Both the position numbers and the translations under genes were made by a program. From Alphaproteobacteria bacterium (GTDB lineage Bacteria > Pseudomonadota > Alphaproteobacteria > DSM-16000 > Inquilinaceae), in NCBI GenBank assembly GCA_028281985.1, contig JANQIU010000039.1:1-46779 (forward strand): a stretch of 46,779 nt of DNA, given 5' to 3'. This document shows, piece by piece, positions 26,269-44,271 of this stretch; within the stretch, counting starts at the first letter, position 1, and each line of letters begins with the position of its first letter. The notes beneath the pieces are model-generated. The model was not told the origin of the DNA and ran no database searches. It was given only the letters and a program-made list of their open reading frames with translations.

Positions 26269-27603
26269 ATGATCGACGACACCAACCGACTTCAGTTTAT
26301 TGGTGTGGATACGCACACCCGCCAGACTTTAAAGCGATTCAAGGAAATCGTTTCTGATGAGATCGAGCCGATCCTCAAGCGGTTTTACGGCAACATCCGC
26401 AAGTTTCCCGATGCCTGGCGTTTCATCGGCCATGACACAAAGGTGCCGTCGCTGATCGACGCACAGAAGAAGCACTGGCTCCAGCTGTTCGAGGCGGAAT
26501 TCGACGATGGCTATTTTGCCTCCGTCCGCCGCGTCGGATTGGCCCATGTGCGTATCGGGCTGGAACCCAATTGGTATCTGGGCGCCTACGGCTACATCCT
26601 GCCGATGCTGCACCGGGTCATATTCGACGCCCATCGCCGAAAGCCGAAACTGGCGATGGACATGATCGAAGCGGTGGACCGGGCCGTGATGCTGGACGCC
26701 GAAGCCAGCGTAACCGTCTATCTCGACGTCGCACGGTCCGAATACGACCGGAAGATGGAAGGGGTGTTGGCCGCCTTCGACGAGCAAATGACCAGCATCG
26801 TCGAAGAGGTCGTCGGCGAGGCCGCCAATGCCCGAGGCCTTGCCGAGAAGATCTCCAGCATGGCGGGGGCAACCAAAGTCCAGACGGAGTCCGTTTCCTC
26901 CGGCGCGGAAGAGGTGAGCGGCAACACTCAATCCATCGCCTCGGCGACCGAGCAGCTTTCGCATTCGATCCGCGAGGTCAGTCAGCAGATCCACCGTATG
27001 TCCGATGTCGCCGAGTCCGCGGTTGCACAGGTCGAGGCGGGCACGACGCATGGCGAAACGCTGACCGGCGCCATCAGCCGGATCGGCGAGGTCCTGAACC
27101 TGATCCAGGGTATCGCCAAGCAAACCAACCTGCTCGCGCTCAATGCGACGATCGAAGCGCAGCGCGCCGGCGAAGCCGGGCGCGGGTTCGCCGTCGTCGC
27201 ATCGGAGGTCAAGACGCTCGCCCGCCAAACGGCGGAGGCGACGTCCAGCATCGATCAGTCGATCGGATCGGTGCGCGGCAGCACCGAAGCCGTGGTTTCG
27301 GCCCTGGGTGCCATCCAGCAGGTGGTCACCACCACCCGCGAGACCGCGAGTGCCGTCTCCGCCGTGGTGGAACAGCAATCGGCCGCGACCGACGGCATCG
27401 CCCGGAACGTCGACCACACAGCAAACGGATCGTCGATGGTATCCCGCAACGTGATCTCGCTGGATCAACAGGCCGACGCGACCGCGAGCGCCGCGTCGAA
27501 GCTGAAGACATCGGCGACGGCCCTGGACACGACGGCCGCCAACCTGCGACAGGCCGCGGCCAGCTTCGCCGCGTCCATCCAGGAGCAGCGCCGCGCTGGC
27601 TGA
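26269..27603 (+). CDS. globin-coupled (protoglobin-domain) methyl-accepting chemotaxis protein, soluble
   Basis: N-terminal globin-sensor motif [26 protein letters not shown] with the proximal His; C-terminal MCP hairpin [43 protein letters not shown]; no TM. Confidence 0.92.
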
Positions 27604-36295: not shown

Positions 36296-36826
36296 ATGCA
36301 GGCGTTGATGGACCCGATTCAACCCCCCAGCCCACGCACCGAGGGCGACGCGGCCATGGAGCGCGTCTATCGCCAAACGGTGTCGCCCATCGGTCCGGGA
36401 ACGCGCTTCCAAAGCCATCTGACCGAACCCCTGTTTCGCTGGTGGGTTGATGCCGGTGGCGGCTCTGCCCCGCCGGTATCGGCCTTCGATATCCTGGATC
36501 ACGTTCGCATCGCGCCGCACATCTTCTTCATCCGCGTCCATGGCGGCGACCGGTTCGAGACCCGCATCATGGGGGAAGAGGCCATCCGACTGGTCGGCGA
36601 GAACCGGGCGGGCAAGGTTCTCACAGCCGACGAGCCGGACGCGCCGGGTCAGGCCTTGTGGGCCTATTACCGCGGCTTGACGCGGCACCGGACCTGCCGC
36701 CTGATCCGCGGCTTTCTGGATTTCGCCGACAAATCCTTCGTGCGCTTCGAGGGCCTGGACTGCCCTCTGGTGTCAGAAGACGGCGAAGTCGTGCGGATCG
36801 TCGGCGTGTTGAGCCAGTTGGACTGA
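36296..36826 (+). CDS. PAS domain-containing protein (PAS_5-like)
   Basis: FRWWVDAGGGSAPPVSAFDILDHVRIAPHIFFIRVHGGDRFETRIMGEEAIRLVGENRAGKVL; RFEGLDCPLVSEDGEVVRIVGVL. Confidence 0.75.
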   Translation: MQALMDPIQPPSPRTEGDAAMERVYRQTVSPIGPGTRFQSHLTEPLFRWWVDAGGGSAPPVSAFDILDHVRIAPHIFFIRVHGGDRFETRIMGEEAIRLVGENRAGKVLTADEPDAPGQALWAYYRGLTRHRTCRLIRGFLDFADKSFVRFEGLDCPLVSEDGEVVRIVGVLSQLD

Positions 36827-36851: not shown

Positions 36852-38837
36852 TCAGACCCGTTTCGGCGTTTCCAGTTCCGCCAGCACGAAATGCTCGACC
36901 ACGATGACCGTGTCATCGTCGAGCGGCTGCCCAAGCGCCGCCAGATCGGTCGACCAGGAACCAGCGTGCTTGGCCTGGAATTCCTGCAAGTCCCGGCACT
37001 GTTCGCCGCGGATCGTCCGCGGGTCCGGCGCACCGAACCGGATCTGGGCCACTTCGGTCACCTGCACCGTACAGCGGTAGCGGCCCTGGCCATCGTAGAT
37101 GTCGATCCGGTCGCCGGGGATGGTCGCCGGGTCTTCCGCCGTCCCCCAGAACGCCAGCGGACAGCACATGGTCGTCTTGCGTCCAGCCAGGATATCCCGA
37201 ACCGGACCGTCGTCGCCGGGTGCCCGGCCCCACAGGCTGGTTCTGCGTGACGGCCGCGCCCCGGCGGGCCGGCCGAAATCGACGGCGAACACGTCGACCG
37301 GCGCCCGGCGACCTTCGACCTGAATATGTTCGAGTTTGCGCAACGGCAGGGAATCGGCGGCCCAGTCGGCGACGGTGGCGGTCACCAGGAACACCTCGCC
37401 AAGCTCCTCGCACGCCTGGCCCAGGCGCACCGCAACATCGACCGTATCGCCCAAGGAGGCATAGTCGCTTTGCACCCCGTCGCCGATGAAGCCGGCGATG
37501 ATCCGGCCATGGTGGATGCCCAGGCCCTGGCGGATCTGCGGTTCGCCGCGCTCGGCCCGCTCGGCGTTCCATCGTGCCAGCTCGCGCTTCATGGCAATGC
37601 CGCAGCGCACGGCCCGCAAGGGGGCATCCGACAGCGGTGTGGGCGCCCCAAAGGTGACCAGAAGCGTCTCGCCGGAGACCTGGTTGGCCGTCCCACCGAA
37701 AGCGAAGACCAGATCCAGCATCCGCTGCCGGTAGTCGGCGAGCCAGGCGACCGCGGTTCCCGGCGGATAGGTTTCCGACAACCCTGCGAAAGCCTGCGGG
37801 CGGCAGAACAGGACGGCGGCTTCCTGAAGACGCGGCCGCGCCGCACCGCGCCCCCGCCCGGCGACGAACTGACCGACCACGGCGGGCGAGAAGAAGCGGC
37901 GCAGCCGACCGGTCGACACCTCGGCGTCCGAGGCGTCATTGACCGCGCTGCGCGCCATCGACGCCAGCCACGTCAGCAGCAGGCCGGCCGCCACGATCTG
38001 CGCCAGGCCAAGTGCCGCGGTGCGGAGGTCCACCGCCCCTTCCATGAACGCGACGGCAGGGTCGGTGGCAAAGGCCGTGCGCGGATCGGCAACGATGATG
38101 GCATAATGCGCCAGCCCGATCAGAAAGGTGGCAGCGGTGCCGATCAGGGGATAGGCGGGGCGCAGCGTCAGCGTATTGATGACCAGGACCAGTACGGCCA
38201 GCTGACCGAAGGGAACCCCGGAAAGATAGGCGGCCGGCAAATCGCTGCCGCCGGCCGACCAGTACCAAACGGCGGGAAAGACAAGCAGGACCAGGCAGTC
38301 AAGGCCCAGCCCGGCATAGCCGACCGCCCTCAGATCGCGCTCCCTGTCGATCCACACCAGCGCGAAGAGGGTCAGAACCGCCGCGGCGGCGGCCACGACG
38401 ACGGACAGGATCACCGCCGTGGCGTTGGTCCCAACGAGCAGGCTGGAGCCGAGCAGCACCGCATAGGCCACGACCCTGGCCAGCAGGGCGAGCCGCAACC
38501 CGCCGACTTCGCGGCGGTAGAGGACACGGCGCGCATCCGCCGGCTCGCCCGCACCGGCGTCGAATTCGGCAACCAGATCCATGGGCGCTTCGTTCGCGGG
38601 ATCCGGGTCCGCGGCCGGCACCGGCTCAGATGGCGAGCCGGCGGCCTTGTCTGCTTCCCGCCGGTCCTGTCCCGGGGGGCGGTCATCAGCCGCGCCGCGG
38701 CCGGCGCCTGCGTCGCTGTTTCGACTGGTCCGGACCGGCCCATTACCGGTCTCCCCGCTCGCCGGTTCCACGGGACCGGCCGGTGCAAGCCGCAGGCGTC
38801 GACGGCCTAGGTCTTCGGTTCCTGCTGGGTTATGCAA
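36852..38837 (-). CDS. membrane-anchored class III adenylate/guanylate cyclase homologue (probably catalytically degenerate) with C-terminal ASCH-like domain
   Basis: Six or so TM helices, then a cyclase fold (AAVLFCRPQAFAGLSETYPPG...GGTANQVSGETLLVTFGAP...GLGIHHGRIIAGFIGDGVQSDYASLGDTVDVAVRLGQA), then ILAGRKTTMCCPLAFWG...IPGDRIDIYDGQGRYRCTVQVTEVAQIRFG...LDDDTVIVVEHFVLAE. Alternative start at 38582. Confidence 0.82.
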   Translation of the reverse strand: MHNPAGTEDLGRRRLRLAPAGPVEPASGETGNGPVRTSRNSDAGAGRGAADDRPPGQDRREADKAAGSPSEPVPAADPDPANEAPMDLVAEFDAGAGEPADARRVLYRREVGGLRLALLARVVAYAVLLGSSLLVGTNATAVILSVVVAAAAAVLTLFALVWIDRERDLRAVGYAGLGLDCLVLLVFPAVWYWSAGGSDLPAAYLSGVPFGQLAVLVLVINTLTLRPAYPLIGTAATFLIGLAHYAIIVADPRTAFATDPAVAFMEGAVDLRTAALGLAQIVAAGLLLTWLASMARSAVNDASDAEVSTGRLRRFFSPAVVGQFVAGRGRGAARPRLQEAAVLFCRPQAFAGLSETYPPGTAVAWLADYRQRMLDLVFAFGGTANQVSGETLLVTFGAPTPLSDAPLRAVRCGIAMKRELARWNAERAERGEPQIRQGLGIHHGRIIAGFIGDGVQSDYASLGDTVDVAVRLGQACEELGEVFLVTATVADWAADSLPLRKLEHIQVEGRRAPVDVFAVDFGRPAGARPSRRTSLWGRAPGDDGPVRDILAGRKTTMCCPLAFWGTAEDPATIPGDRIDIYDGQGRYRCTVQVTEVAQIRFGAPDPRTIRGEQCRDLQEFQAKHAGSWSTDLAALGQPLDDDTVIVVEHFVLAELETPKRV

Positions 38838-39856
38838 TGAATACCGCCACCACCAACTACTATATCGTTTGCCACGACCCGGATGATCCGCCGGTCCGGA
38901 AACAGGTCTCGCATCACCCGGTGCGCCCGGTCGTCTTCCGGTGCGCGAAACTGAGGCATCACGATGCCTTCGTTGGCAATATAGAAGTTTATGTACGACA
39001 GGGTTAACCGCCGGCCGTCGCCGCGTTCCCGCCTTGGCGGCTGCGGGACCGTGACCGTCTCCAAAGGTCGCCCGGCGGCATCGGTGCTGGCCTGCAGCAC
39101 CTCCAGATTCGCCTTGAAACGATCGTAGTTGCCGTCGGCCGGGTCGTCGCAGCTTAAGGCCATCACCACCCCCGGCCGGGCGAAACAGGCCACTTCATCC
39201 ACATGACCATCGGTTTCGTCGTCCTGGTAGCCGAAGGGCAGCCAGATCACCTTGGTGACGCCGAGCATGGATCTCAGGTGGAACTCGATTTCCGCTTTGC
39301 CCAGATGCCTGTTGCGGTTGGGGTTCAGCAGGCACTCCTCGGTAGTGATCAAGGTGCCCTCGCCGTCCACGTGGAAGGCGCCGCCCTCCATCACCATCGG
39401 CAAGGCAAAGCGGTGGGCACCGGCTCGCTCGATGATCTTTGCCGCCACCGCCGAATCGTCGTGATGGGGCTTGTACTTGTTGCCGTACCCGTTGAAGCCC
39501 CAGTCGACGGCCGCCAGCGGTTGGCCCGGTTTGTCGGACACCAGGAAGCTGGGGCCGGTGTCGCGCAGCCAACTGTCGTTCAGCGGCCAGGACAGCACCT
39601 CCACACCGGGGCCGCCGGCCAGGGAGGCCTCCGCCACATCGGGCGGATTGCAGACCATGGTGACCGGCTCGAATTCGGCGATGGCACGCGCCACTTCGGT
39701 ATAGGCGTTGCGGGCGGCATCCAGCCCGTTCGGCCACGTCGCCTCGCGGCAGGGCCAGGCCATCCAGCACCGACGATGGGGCGTCCATTCGCCCGGCATC
39801 CGGTACCCCTGGGCGGCCGGCGTTGCGGCCGCTCCGGAAACTTCCGTCTCACTCAT
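38807..39856 (-). CDS. aguA: agmatine deiminase
   Basis: YRMPGEWTPHRRCWMAWPCREATWPNGLDAARNAYTEVARAIAEFEPVTMVC; SWLRDTGPSFLV; GWNFNG-like DWGFNGYGNKY; catalytic Cys in GGGGIHCITQQEPK. Confidence 0.93.
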   Translation of the reverse strand: MSETEVSGAAATPAAQGYRMPGEWTPHRRCWMAWPCREATWPNGLDAARNAYTEVARAIAEFEPVTMVCNPPDVAEASLAGGPGVEVLSWPLNDSWLRDTGPSFLVSDKPGQPLAAVDWGFNGYGNKYKPHHDDSAVAAKIIERAGAHRFALPMVMEGGAFHVDGEGTLITTEECLLNPNRNRHLGKAEIEFHLRSMLGVTKVIWLPFGYQDDETDGHVDEVACFARPGVVMALSCDDPADGNYDRFKANLEVLQASTDAAGRPLETVTVPQPPRRERGDGRRLTLSYINFYIANEGIVMPQFRAPEDDRAHRVMRDLFPDRRIIRVVANDIVVGGGGIHCITQQEPKT

Positions 39857-39904: not shown

Positions 39905-40750
39905 CTACACCTCCTGCGCGCGGCCCGAATAGGCCAGTTGATCGTCGCGCTGCCGGCGGCGTTCCTGACGGTTCAGCAGGATACCGGCAATGATGATGCC
40001 GACGCTGACGAACAGCACGAACAGGGTCGCCAGCGCGTTGATCTCCGGGGAAACGCCGCGGCGCACGCTGGAAAACACTTCCATCGGCAGGGTGCTGGAT
40101 CCCGGTCCGGAAACGAAGCTGGCGATCACCAGGTCGTCCAACGACAGGGTGAAGGCCAGAAGCCATCCGGCGACCAGGGCCGGTGCGATCAGCGGCAGCG
40201 TGATCACCAGGAACACCTTGAACGGCCGCGCGCCCAGATCCTGCGCCGCCTCCTCCACCGACTCGTCCATCCCGGACAGCCGCGACTGCACGATGATTGC
40301 GACATAGGCCATGGCGAAGGTGGTGTGGGCGATCATGATCGTGGTCATGCCACGGCCGGCCGGCCAGCCGATCAGGCCCTGCAAGGTGACGAACAGCAAC
40401 AAGAGCGACAGGCCGGTGATCACCTCCGGCATCACCAGCGGGGCGGTGATCATGCCACCGAACAGGGCGCGGCCGCGGAACCGGCCGAACCGGGCCAGGG
40501 CCAACCCGGCTGCCGTCCCCAGCGCCACGGCAAAGGAGGCGCTGACCACCGCCACCCGCAGGCTGACCCAGAAGGCGCCCAGCAGGCTGTCGTTGCCCAG
40601 CAGGGCGCCATACCAGCGCAACGTCCAGCCGCCCCAGATGGCCACATTGGCCGAATCGTTGAACGAATAGATGATCAGCAGCAGGATCGGCAGGTAGAGG
40701 AAGGCGTAGCCGAACGCCAGGGCCGAAAACAGCACCACGCCGCGGCTCAT
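39905..40750 (-). CDS. potI: polyamine ABC transporter permease (PotI/PotC type)
   Basis: MSRGVVLFSALAFGYAFLYLPILLLIIYSFNDSANVAIWGGWTLRWYGALLGND; EAA loop VEEAAQDLGARPFKVFLVITLPLIAPAL. Confidence 0.85.
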   Translation of the reverse strand: MSRGVVLFSALAFGYAFLYLPILLLIIYSFNDSANVAIWGGWTLRWYGALLGNDSLLGAFWVSLRVAVVSASFAVALGTAAGLALARFGRFRGRALFGGMITAPLVMPEVITGLSLLLLFVTLQGLIGWPAGRGMTTIMIAHTTFAMAYVAIIVQSRLSGMDESVEEAAQDLGARPFKVFLVITLPLIAPALVAGWLLAFTLSLDDLVIASFVSGPGSSTLPMEVFSSVRRGVSPEINALATLFVLFVSVGIIIAGILLNRQERRRQRDDQLAYSGRAQEV

Positions 40751-41769
40751 GTCCGGCGCTCCTGCTGGCGGCCCTGGGCCCACTGGAACAGCATGATCGG
40801 GATCACCAGGAACAGGAGCAGGGCGATGGCCACCGCACTGGCCACGGGCCAGTCGCGGTTGGCGAAGAACTCGTCCCACAGCACCTTGCCGATCATCAGA
40901 TTGTCGCTGCCGCCCAGCAGCTCCGGGATCACGAATTCGCCGACCGCCGGAATGAACACCAGCAGCGATCCCGCCAGCACGCCCGGCAGCGACAGCGGCA
41001 GGGTCACGGTCAGGAACGCCCGAATGGGCCGGCACCCCAGATCGGCGGCCGCCTCGAGCAGCGACCGGTCCATCTTCTCCAGGTTGGCGTAAAGCGGCAG
41101 CACCATGAACGGCAGGTACGAGTAGACGATGCCGATGTAGATCGCGACTTCGGTGTGGCGGATCGCCAGCGGTTCGCCGATGACCCCCAGCCACAGCAGG
41201 AAGTTGTTCAGCAGGCCGTCGCTGTTGAGGATGCCTATCCAGGCATAGACCCGGATCAGGAACGAGGTCCAGAAGGGCAGGATCACCAGCATCAGCAGCG
41301 CCGGCCGCCAGCGCGGATCGGCCCGGGCGATGGCATAGGCCATCGGATAGCCGATCAGCAGGCACAGGACGGTGGAGATCGCTGCGATCTTCAGCGAGTT
41401 CAGATAGGCCAGGATGTATAGGGAATCCTGGAGAAGGAAGGTGTAGTTCCCAAGGTTGATGCGGATGGCCAGGGCGCTCGGCTCGACCCATTCGAACAGC
41501 GGCGTATAGGGCGGCTGGCCGAAATCGCTCTCCGCAAAGCTGATCTCCAGCACGATGGCGAAGGGCACCAGGAAGAACAGCGCCAGCCAGAAGAACGGTA
41601 GGTTCACCACCAGGCGCCGCCCGACCAGCCCCAAGCGGCGCAGCACCACGAGACAGACGGCCCACAGGCCCTCCAGGACTTGTTCCAGCCATTGCAGGCC
41701 ATGCGGCCAGCTTGGCGGGCCGGCCTCGGCCATCCTCTGCCCGAGCGGCAGGAAGCCCTTGCGGCTCAT
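40747..41769 (-). CDS. potH: polyamine ABC transporter permease (PotH/PotB type)
   Basis: EISFAESDFGQPPYTPLFEW; LIRVYAWIGILNSDGLLNNFLLWLGVI; LLEAAADLGCRPIRAFLTVTLPLSLPGVLAGSLLVFIPAVGEFVIPELLGGSDNLMIGKVLWDEFFANRDWPVASAVA. Confidence 0.9.
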   Translation of the reverse strand: MSRKGFLPLGQRMAEAGPPSWPHGLQWLEQVLEGLWAVCLVVLRRLGLVGRRLVVNLPFFWLALFFLVPFAIVLEISFAESDFGQPPYTPLFEWVEPSALAIRINLGNYTFLLQDSLYILAYLNSLKIAAISTVLCLLIGYPMAYAIARADPRWRPALLMLVILPFWTSFLIRVYAWIGILNSDGLLNNFLLWLGVIGEPLAIRHTEVAIYIGIVYSYLPFMVLPLYANLEKMDRSLLEAAADLGCRPIRAFLTVTLPLSLPGVLAGSLLVFIPAVGEFVIPELLGGSDNLMIGKVLWDEFFANRDWPVASAVAIALLLFLVIPIMLFQWAQGRQQERRT

Positions 41770-41782
41770 CCCGGTCGGCCCG

Positions 41783-42973
41783 TCATGCGGTCAACACCAC
41801 ACCGGCATCGGGCCGCCAGGTCACCCAGACATGGTCTTCCCAGGTTACCGGCATCTCCGTCATCCGTGTCGTGTTCGGCGCCTTGACCCGCACCGTCCTG
41901 CCGGTCGGCAGTTCCACCAGATAGACGGAGTGATCGCCCAGATAGGCGATTTCCTGGACGATGCCCTGGACGGCGTTGTGCCGGTCGTCGGGCGGCTGAC
42001 CGGCGATCGCCATCTTCTCCGGGCGCACTGCCACCGACACGACGGTGCCGGCAGGCACCTCGGCGCCATGGCTGACGTAGAGCGTCGCGTCGGCTTCTTC
42101 CGAGGCGATCAGGACATGATCGGGCTGGTTGTCGGTCACCAGGCCCTCGAACATGTTCACTTGGCCGATGAAGCCGGCGACGAAGCGGTTCTGCGGATAC
42201 TCGTAGATCTCCGCCGGCGTGCCGGTCTGGCGGATCCACCCCTGGTCCATGACGGCGATCCGGGTGGCCATGGACATGGCCTCGTCCTGGTCGTGGGTCA
42301 CCATGACGAAGGTGATGCCCACCTGCTCCTGGATGTTCACCAGCTCGAACTGGGTCTGCTCGCGCAGCTTGGCGTCCAGGGCAGCCAGCGGTTCGTCCAG
42401 CAGCAGCAGCTTGGGCCGCTTCACCAGGCTCCGCGCCAGCGCCACCCGCTGGCGCTGGCCGCCGGAAAGCTGGTGGGGCTTGCGTTTGGCGAAGGCGGAA
42501 AGCTGCACCAGCTCCAGCGCTTCGGCGACGCGCCGCCGGACGTCGCCGGCGGGCAGGCGTTCCTGGCGCAACCCGAACGCGACATTGGCCTGCACCGTCA
42601 TATGCGGGAACAGCGCATAGGACTGGAACATCATGTTGACCGGCCGGTCGTAGGGCGGGATCTCCGACATGTCGACGCCGTCGATCAGGATCCGCCCCTG
42701 GCTCGGGATCTCGAAGCCGGCGAGCATACGGAGGAGCGTGGTCTTCCCGCAGCCCGACCCGCCGAGCAGCGCGAACAGCTCGCCGCGGTAGATGTCCAGG
42801 GTCACGTCGTCGACGGCCACGAACGGCCCGAAGGTCTTGGTCACCCCGACGATCTGCACATAAGGCTGGGCGTTCGGGTCCTGCCAGGGCTCCCGGTAGT
42901 TCGGCCGCGCCGGCTTAGCCGCCGGCCCGGGCGGCCGGGACACCGGCGGCTGGTTCAGGGCATCGTCCGCCAC
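41783..42973 (-). CDS. potG: polyamine ABC transporter ATP-binding protein (PotG/PotA type)
   Basis: LLGGSGCGKTTLLRMLAGFEIPSQGRILIDGVDMSEIPPYDRPVNMMFQSYALFPHMTVQANVAFGL; LSGGQRQRVALARSL; C-terminal TOBE-like region. Confidence 0.93.
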   Translation of the reverse strand: MADDALNQPPVSRPPGPAAKPARPNYREPWQDPNAQPYVQIVGVTKTFGPFVAVDDVTLDIYRGELFALLGGSGCGKTTLLRMLAGFEIPSQGRILIDGVDMSEIPPYDRPVNMMFQSYALFPHMTVQANVAFGLRQERLPAGDVRRRVAEALELVQLSAFAKRKPHQLSGGQRQRVALARSLVKRPKLLLLDEPLAALDAKLREQTQFELVNIQEQVGITFVMVTHDQDEAMSMATRIAVMDQGWIRQTGTPAEIYEYPQNRFVAGFIGQVNMFEGLVTDNQPDHVLIASEEADATLYVSHGAEVPAGTVVSVAVRPEKMAIAGQPPDDRHNAVQGIVQEIAYLGDHSVYLVELPTGRTVRVKAPNTTRMTEMPVTWEDHVWVTWRPDAGVVLTA

Positions 42974-43018
42974 GGTTGTCGACCCGGCGGTTTGCGGCCG
43001 GATGGCGTCCCGCGCCGG

Positions 43019-44131
43019 TTACCGGCCGGTACGGATACGCGTCCAGGCCCGGGTTCGCAGGCGTTCATAGCCGGCCGTCCGGGGCGTGGTAACGAACAGC
43101 CGGGCAATCATCTCCTCGCCCAGGAAGATCTGCGGGTCGCCGGCGATCTCCTCGTCCACCATCGGCAGCGATGCCGGGACGGGATTGGCGTACCAGACAT
43201 AGTTGCTCATGCTAGCCATCACCTCCGGCTCCAGCAGGAAGTTGATCAGCGTGTGGGCCGCTTCGGCATTCGGCGCGTCGGCCGGGATCGCCATCAGGTC
43301 GAACCAGAGATTGGTGCCTTCGGTCGGCACGACGTAGCGGATCTCGATGCCGTTCTCCGCCTCCGCCGCGCGATCGGCGGCCAGATAGATGTCGCCGGAG
43401 AAACCCATGCCGATGCAGATCTCCCCGGTCGCCAGGTCGTTGATGTACTGGCTGTCGTGGAAATAGCGGATATGCGGGCGGATTTCGGCCAGAAGCGCCT
43501 CGGCCGCGGCCAAGTCTTCCGGATTCTCCGCATTCGGATCCAGTCCCATATAGTGCAGCACGATCGGCAGCACCTCGCCCGCGGTACCTAGGATGCTGAC
43601 GCCGCAATCGGCGAAATTGGCGACCACCTCCGGATCGAAGATCATGTCGAAACTGTCGACCGGCGCATCCGGCATGCGCTCGGCGATCATCGCCGGGTTG
43701 TAGCCGAAGCCGGTGGTCCCCCAGGCATACATCGCCGCGAAATCTTCGCCGTTCGGGCCCTTGGGCACGACCTCCATCAGGGCCGGGTCCAGGTTGCCGA
43801 AATTCGGCAGCAGCGACAGGTCCAGCGGCTGGTAGATCCCCGCGGCCACCTGACGGTGGAACCACGGAAAGGCCGAGGGCACGACCACATCATACCCGGA
43901 ACTGCCGGCCAGCAGCTTGGCTTCCAGGATGTCGTTGCTGTCGTAGACGTCATAGACCACGTCGACGCCGGTGGCGGCGGTGAAGTCGTCGATGGTCGAT
44001 TCGCCGATGTAGTCGGACCAGTTGTAGAAGTTGACCCGGTCCTGGGCCACCGCCGCGCCCATCGTCGAGGTCATGGCCACCGAAACCATCGCCACACCGC
44101 CCGCCAGGGCCAGGGCAAACCGCTTGTGCAT
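43019..44131 (-). CDS. potF: putrescine/polyamine periplasmic binding protein (PotF-like)
   Basis: VNFYNWSDYIGESTIDDFTAATGVDVVYDVYDSNDILEAKLLAGSSGYDVVVPSAFPWFHRQVAAGIYQPLD; IRYFHDSQYINDLATGEICIGMGFSGDIYLA; RLRTRAWTRIRTGR, closely resembling E. coli PotF. Confidence 0.93.
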   Translation of the reverse strand: MHKRFALALAGGVAMVSVAMTSTMGAAVAQDRVNFYNWSDYIGESTIDDFTAATGVDVVYDVYDSNDILEAKLLAGSSGYDVVVPSAFPWFHRQVAAGIYQPLDLSLLPNFGNLDPALMEVVPKGPNGEDFAAMYAWGTTGFGYNPAMIAERMPDAPVDSFDMIFDPEVVANFADCGVSILGTAGEVLPIVLHYMGLDPNAENPEDLAAAEALLAEIRPHIRYFHDSQYINDLATGEICIGMGFSGDIYLAADRAAEAENGIEIRYVVPTEGTNLWFDLMAIPADAPNAEAAHTLINFLLEPEVMASMSNYVWYANPVPASLPMVDEEIAGDPQIFLGEEMIARLFVTTPRTAGYERLRTRAWTRIRTGR

Positions 44132-44271
44132 GAAGCCGTTCCCGCGTTGTCCATTGCCGGCGCGCCCGGGTGGCCGCGCCGTTTTGCGGCCGCATTGCAC
44201 AAGCGGTTGTAGTCGTTGTCAATCGCGCCGCGGCGATCGGATCGCCGCCAGCGGCTGGGCCAGGGCAATGG

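Follow-up and report, generated by a model that had tools for sequence, protein, structure and literature searches.

The subject of this report is a gene on the reverse strand of the window, a 46,779-nucleotide stretch of an alphaproteobacterial draft genome (family Inquilinaceae, contig JANQIU010000039.1). Its product joins a six-helix membrane domain to a degenerate class III cyclase domain and a C-terminal ASCH domain. Alignments show that the protein descends from alphaproteobacterial six-helix membrane class III cyclases, which have intact active sites and lack an ASCH domain. They also show that catalytic residues of its cyclase domain are gone and that an added ASCH domain has kept its Lys and Glu but not its invariant Thr. 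The explanation preferred here, with a probability somewhat short of even, is a maintained double pseudoenzyme serving as a membrane receptor.

Residue numbers follow the 661-codon open reading frame (ORF) at 36852-38837 (reverse strand) that was used in an earlier, sequence-only reading of the window. The features of the gene are:

36852..38582, reverse strand: likely gene, six-helix membrane domain plus degenerate class III cyclase domain plus ASCH (ORF, codon statistics, homologue alignment)
37962..38489, reverse strand: six hydrophobic helices, ORF residues 117-292 (hydropathy; AF2 model helices; canonical cyclases from Tistrella and further Alphaproteobacteria have a homologous region)
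37878..37901, reverse strand: linker motif RRFFSPAV between membrane and cyclase domains, ORF residues 313-320 (conserved among homologues)
37305..37832, reverse strand: class III cyclase domain PF00211, ORF residues 336-511 (Pfam, PDB homologues, Foldseek)
37800..37802, reverse strand: first metal Asp replaced by Arg346, codon CGC (alignment)
37668..37682, reverse strand: KFIGD changed to QVSGE, base-contacting Lys to Gln386 (37680-37682), second metal Asp to Glu390 (37668-37670) (alignment)
37425..37460, reverse strand: TVIGDTVNVASR changed to ASLGDTVDVAVR, base-contacting Thr to Ala460, transition-state Asn to Asp467 (37437-37439), phosphate-binding Arg471 kept (alignment)
36855..37265, reverse strand: ASCH domain, modelled ORF residues 525-661 (independent profile, AF2, Foldseek)
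37161..37184, reverse strand: ASCH signature GxKTxT with G552 and K554 kept, invariant Thr changed to Met557 (37167-37169), Cys559 at the Arg position of GxKxxxxR (alignment, register with YqfB K21/T24)
37002..37004, reverse strand: ASCH Glu612 kept, aligned with a Glu conserved in 25 of 29 others (alignment)

Cyclase and ASCH domains

The class III cyclase framework recognised in the sequence-only reading is borne out by a match to PF00211 (E=6.3e-9, 36.1 bits, above the curated cut-off of 21.9), and the model of the domain superimposes in Foldseek on CyaC, CyaB and Cya2 with template modelling (TM) scores of about 0.83-0.89 of the target. At the positions of metal 1, base Lys, metal 2, base Thr, Asn and Arg the window protein reads R Q E A D R versus D K D T N R in most relatives, leaving Arg471 as the only catalytic residue of the six. 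Both metal-binding Asp residues and the Asn are kept in all 65 other cyclase domains compared. Here neither the two metal Asp (Arg346, Glu390) nor the substrate Lys and transition-state Asn (Gln386, Asp467) expected of an active enzyme are found. Judged from the alignment, the domain has lost its catalytic residues, so that synthesis of cyclic AMP (cAMP) or cyclic GMP is predicted to be absent. Having just this Arg, it is like neither half, C1 or C2, of the mammalian cyclases.

The sequence-only reading had named Cys as the replacement of the first metal Asp, which is one residue off: the Asp of VLFADIRGF aligns with Arg346, and Cys345 (37803-37805) occupies the preceding variable position. 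The Glu reported at the second metal site and the Asp reported for the transition-state Asn both agree with the alignment. That reading overlooked that Lys is replaced by Gln386 and that the ASCH domain lacks its invariant Thr. As to function, the proposed non-catalytic role fits the replacement of both metal ligands; the suggested nucleotide binding in the cyclase pocket is unsupported, because base Lys, base Thr and Asn are replaced as well. A frameshift pair around VLFCRPQAF was considered and rejected upon reading the codons, the other frames containing no canonical motif.

Unusual residue sets occur in other cyclases, too. About 20 matches to class III cyclases are found in the genome; two of them (L008 and L059) keep the metal Asp and carry odd substrate residues (Ala/Ser for Lys, Met/Gln for Thr). 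L110 and L112, otherwise canonical six-helix cyclases, read NVAAL, with Leu at the position of the transition-state Arg, which is the single catalytic residue retained by the window protein.

The cyclase and ASCH parts were modelled separately, a combined alignment having misplaced the ASCH rows, and 11 viral ASCH genes retrieved by a DNA-motif search were added to the alignment for structure prediction. The assignment of the C-terminus to ASCH, proposed in the sequence-only reading, holds despite a Pfam score of 14.5 bits, under the cut-off of 21.2. An independent profile, combining nine free-standing ASCH proteins and excluding the window protein, recognises the tail with 77.7 bits (E=4e-22), and phmmer matches it to the ASCH chains 3s9x (2.9e-4) and 1t62 (0.01). 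The AF2 model of this part has a predicted local distance difference test (pLDDT) score of 89.9. Foldseek pairs it with 1t62 (E=4e-10), the TM scores of the target being 0.80 for 1t62 and 3s9x and 0.82 for YqfB, and the fold also matches ZmASCH. The PUA-like beta-barrel ASCH fold of the tail is thereby confirmed at the level of the model.

Within this fold, G552, K554, H624, E648 and F650 are retained. The motif GxKxxxxR is incomplete (GRKTTMCC), with G and K kept and Cys559 in place of Arg. Since this Arg is also missing from most 1t62-type members, Cys559 is no bar to membership of the ASCH fold. By comparison, all 28 other ASCH domains have Thr three residues after the signature Lys, where the window protein has Met557. 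Consequently the Lys-Thr-Glu triad plus Arg of the YqfB type is reduced to K554 and E612. In YqfB, Thr24 is the proposed nucleophile; the variants T24A, K21A and R26A are inactive and T24S is active (PMC6972931). The role of the Thr is demonstrated for YqfB alone; in the 1t62-type group it is suggested by conservation. ASCH domains bind RNA or nucleosides (PMC5615036, PMC6972931), and a sensor of such ligands, as suggested in the sequence-only reading, is conceivable. Viral relatives of the domain have Thr or Ser at the position of Met557; among them, L118-L128 from viral contigs are free-standing 1t62-type ASCH proteins whose signature Thr is often Ser (KTASC), a change tolerated by YqfB.

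Gene model, membrane domain and distribution

According to the ORF list, 36852-38837 is an uninterrupted frame of 661 codons. Its first 85 codons, ahead of the ATG at 38582, carry no coding signal: GC content by codon position is 0.84/0.67/0.69 and the codon score is -0.08 versus +0.18 to +0.31 in the remainder. Because homologues moreover start at or close to the position matching residue 86, translation probably begins at ATG 38580-38582, giving a product of 576 amino acids. This start is supported by the N-terminal motif LLxxRExxG, which aligns with the homologues; TTG 38837 is ruled out as a start by codon statistics and homologue starts. From about 38582 down to 36852, codon use and codon-position GC are typical of a coding gene across all three domains.

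The N-terminus, membrane domain and linker retain 18 of the 21 positions that are invariant in nine family members, and the three changes are mild (L/V, L/I, Y/F). The linker RRFFSPAV keeps the R, F, S, P and V invariant in the nine homologues and differs solely by Tyr315 to Phe. Six-helix anchors of class III cyclases form dimers, can serve as receptors and are exchangeable with receptor domains (PMC4821796).

The searches for further examples cover part of the sequenced genomes, metagenomes excluded. With the ASCH tail as query, 17 family, 385 class and 399 phylum genomes (partly overlapping sets) yielded elsewhere only free-standing ASCH proteins, and viral contigs and plasmids yielded no cyclase-ASCH fusion. 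A whole-protein search of the genome collection returned no close relatives. Scanning the same collection with the membrane-domain alignment gave 14 relatives, Tistrella mobilis included; none of those readable to the end carries ASCH, and every cyclase domain read among them has intact metal sites. Among the 149 loci fetched, both domains stand in one frame in the window protein only, and no description of such a fusion was found in the literature searched. The cyclase-ASCH fusion is known from one draft genome only. The unfamiliar architecture claimed in the sequence-only reading thus found no second example in about 780 genomes, among the relatives from the genome-collection scan, in plasmids or in viral contigs. 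As to conservation, which that reading proposed to check among homologues, the fusion occurs in this genome only among those searched. The architecture is real and unusual, a variant of the known receptor-cyclase type, with the reservation that it is represented by one sequence from a draft genome.

Maintenance or decay of the gene

Among columns conserved in at least 90% of the 65 other cyclase domains, 3 of the 4 catalytic ones are changed in the window protein versus 0 of the 13 others (Fisher p=0.006); at 80% conservation the figures are 4 of 5 and 4 of 21 (p=0.02). Compared with the nine family members, the cyclase domain has lost 21 invariant residues, most of them within or adjacent to the three active-site motifs. 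This pattern fits a loss of catalysis with fold and signalling parts retained. Because losses cluster in the active sites and spare the structural residues, the membrane domain and the signalling linker, a maintained double pseudoenzyme is favoured over a decaying gene.

In such a receptor, the six-helix domain could sense, as a dimer, a lipophilic or membrane-related signal, and the linker and dead cyclase dimer might transmit the change as a relay or clamp. The output would be a tethered ASCH pair that binds, and does not cleave, a nucleobase, nucleoside or RNA ligand; alternatively, ligand occupancy might be reported to a partner. More specifically, the second-messenger output might in this way have been exchanged for an ASCH domain that is tethered to the membrane and does not hydrolyse its ligand, the receptor sensing or capturing modified nucleosides or RNA at the membrane; this proposal is fairly unlikely as it stands. 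Such a signalling architecture has not been described earlier in the literature searched.

Several points weigh against a maintained receptor. The site test is built on few sites, and the branch of the window protein measures 1.39 versus 0.20-0.26 for its sisters, which also fits relaxed selection. The evidence is a single sequence, and no orthologue bears out that its state is conserved. The full-length model has a predicted template modelling (pTM) score of 0.47, indicating low confidence in domain placement. The protein is a singleton on a fast-evolving branch, and its function is an inference.

The long terminal branch, together with damage to both catalytic centres, occurrence in one genome only and the abundance of cyclase-like matches in that genome, is what relaxed selection would predict, with a redundant cyclase that became fused to an ASCH gene now drifting, still uninterrupted. 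Set against this are the open frame with normal codon use over its whole length, the concentration of losses at catalytic sites with the most strongly conserved structural sites unchanged, and the preserved invariant residues of membrane domain and linker. Drift is somewhat unlikely.

Improbable, too, is a role as a dominant-negative or regulatory subunit: the protein would pair with one of the cell's intact six-helix cyclases, inhibiting or tuning it, and ASCH would be an accessory binding domain. Class III cyclases dimerise and have their active sites where the two chains meet; mutated halves of six-helix cyclases pair and complement each other (PMC4821796). The window domain has neither the metal ligands nor the Lys/Asn set, so from the way in which C1 and C2 share the work (PMC4174876) a mixed dimer would be expected to have two dead sites. 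However, the genome encodes no close intact paralogue (best 32% identity), and this role leaves the ASCH domain and its lost Thr unexplained.

Still less probable is an ASCH domain that remains an active hydrolase or nuclease with altered active-site residues under control of the membrane receptor. Although Lys554 and Glu612 are kept and ZmASCH cleaves RNA with a different residue set (Tyr47, Lys53, Ser128), the Thr found in 28 of 28 others is Met, and the equivalents of both YqfB residues whose T24A and R26A variants are inactive are changed. Finally, an assembly artefact or sequencing error is hardly credible even in a draft of 361 contigs, as both halves lie in frame, on the same strand and with similar codon statistics within a 46.8 kb contig, and codon reading finds the motif changes in frame with no shift to account for them.

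If the receptor is maintained, a six-helix anchor and a cyclase fold can serve as receptor and relay without cAMP synthesis, which bears on what class III cyclases use their large membrane domains for; it would also place an ASCH domain in a membrane-receptor setting.

Genomic neighbourhood and known systems

Upstream of the gene lie:

38807..39856, reverse strand: agmatine deiminase family (PF04371), about 224 bp before the likely start (Pfam)
39905..44200, reverse strand: ABC (ATP-binding cassette) importer genes, comprising two permeases, ATPase and binding protein

From its gene order with the deiminase, the importer is probably one for polyamines. In the roughly 224 bp between deiminase and likely gene start, no promoter-like or terminator-like site was found, and the agmatine/polyamine genes give a weak hint to the pathway. 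Canonical six-helix relatives have different gene surroundings. Convergent with the cyclase gene runs a coding-like ORF of 176 amino acids (36296-36826, forward strand), PAS-type sensor-like by eye and without a Pfam match. Elsewhere in the window, the product of 26269-27603 (forward strand) combines a protoglobin with a methyl-accepting chemotaxis signalling domain in one chain and probably serves chemotaxis as a haem-based oxygen sensor.

Among known systems, the six-helix class III adenylate cyclases (type Rv1625c; an alphaproteobacterial family that includes Tistrella mobilis L105, L104, L107, L111, L109, L114) share membrane domain, linker motif and cyclase fold with the window protein, at 27-37% identity and up to 46% in the cyclase domain. 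In all relatives read, both metal Asp, the Lys and the Asn are intact and the chain stops after the cyclase domain, whereas the window protein has lost all four and carries ASCH. With the free-standing 1t62/3s9x-type ASCH proteins and the alphaproteobacterial L042 and L043 it has fold, Lys, Glu, His and core residues in common (30% identity to L042). Unlike these, its ASCH domain is joined to a membrane receptor and has Met for the invariant Thr; the Arg of GxKxxxxR, present in L042 and L043, is Cys. YqfB, an N4-acetylcytidine amidohydrolase, shares the ASCH fold and the Lys21 equivalent, but the equivalents of Thr24 and Arg26 are both replaced, so that YqfB chemistry is not expected in the window protein. 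Mammalian adenylyl cyclase C2 domains likewise represent a cyclase fold that does not supply the metal Asp pair (PMC4174876); by comparison with these, the window domain retains the Arg only.
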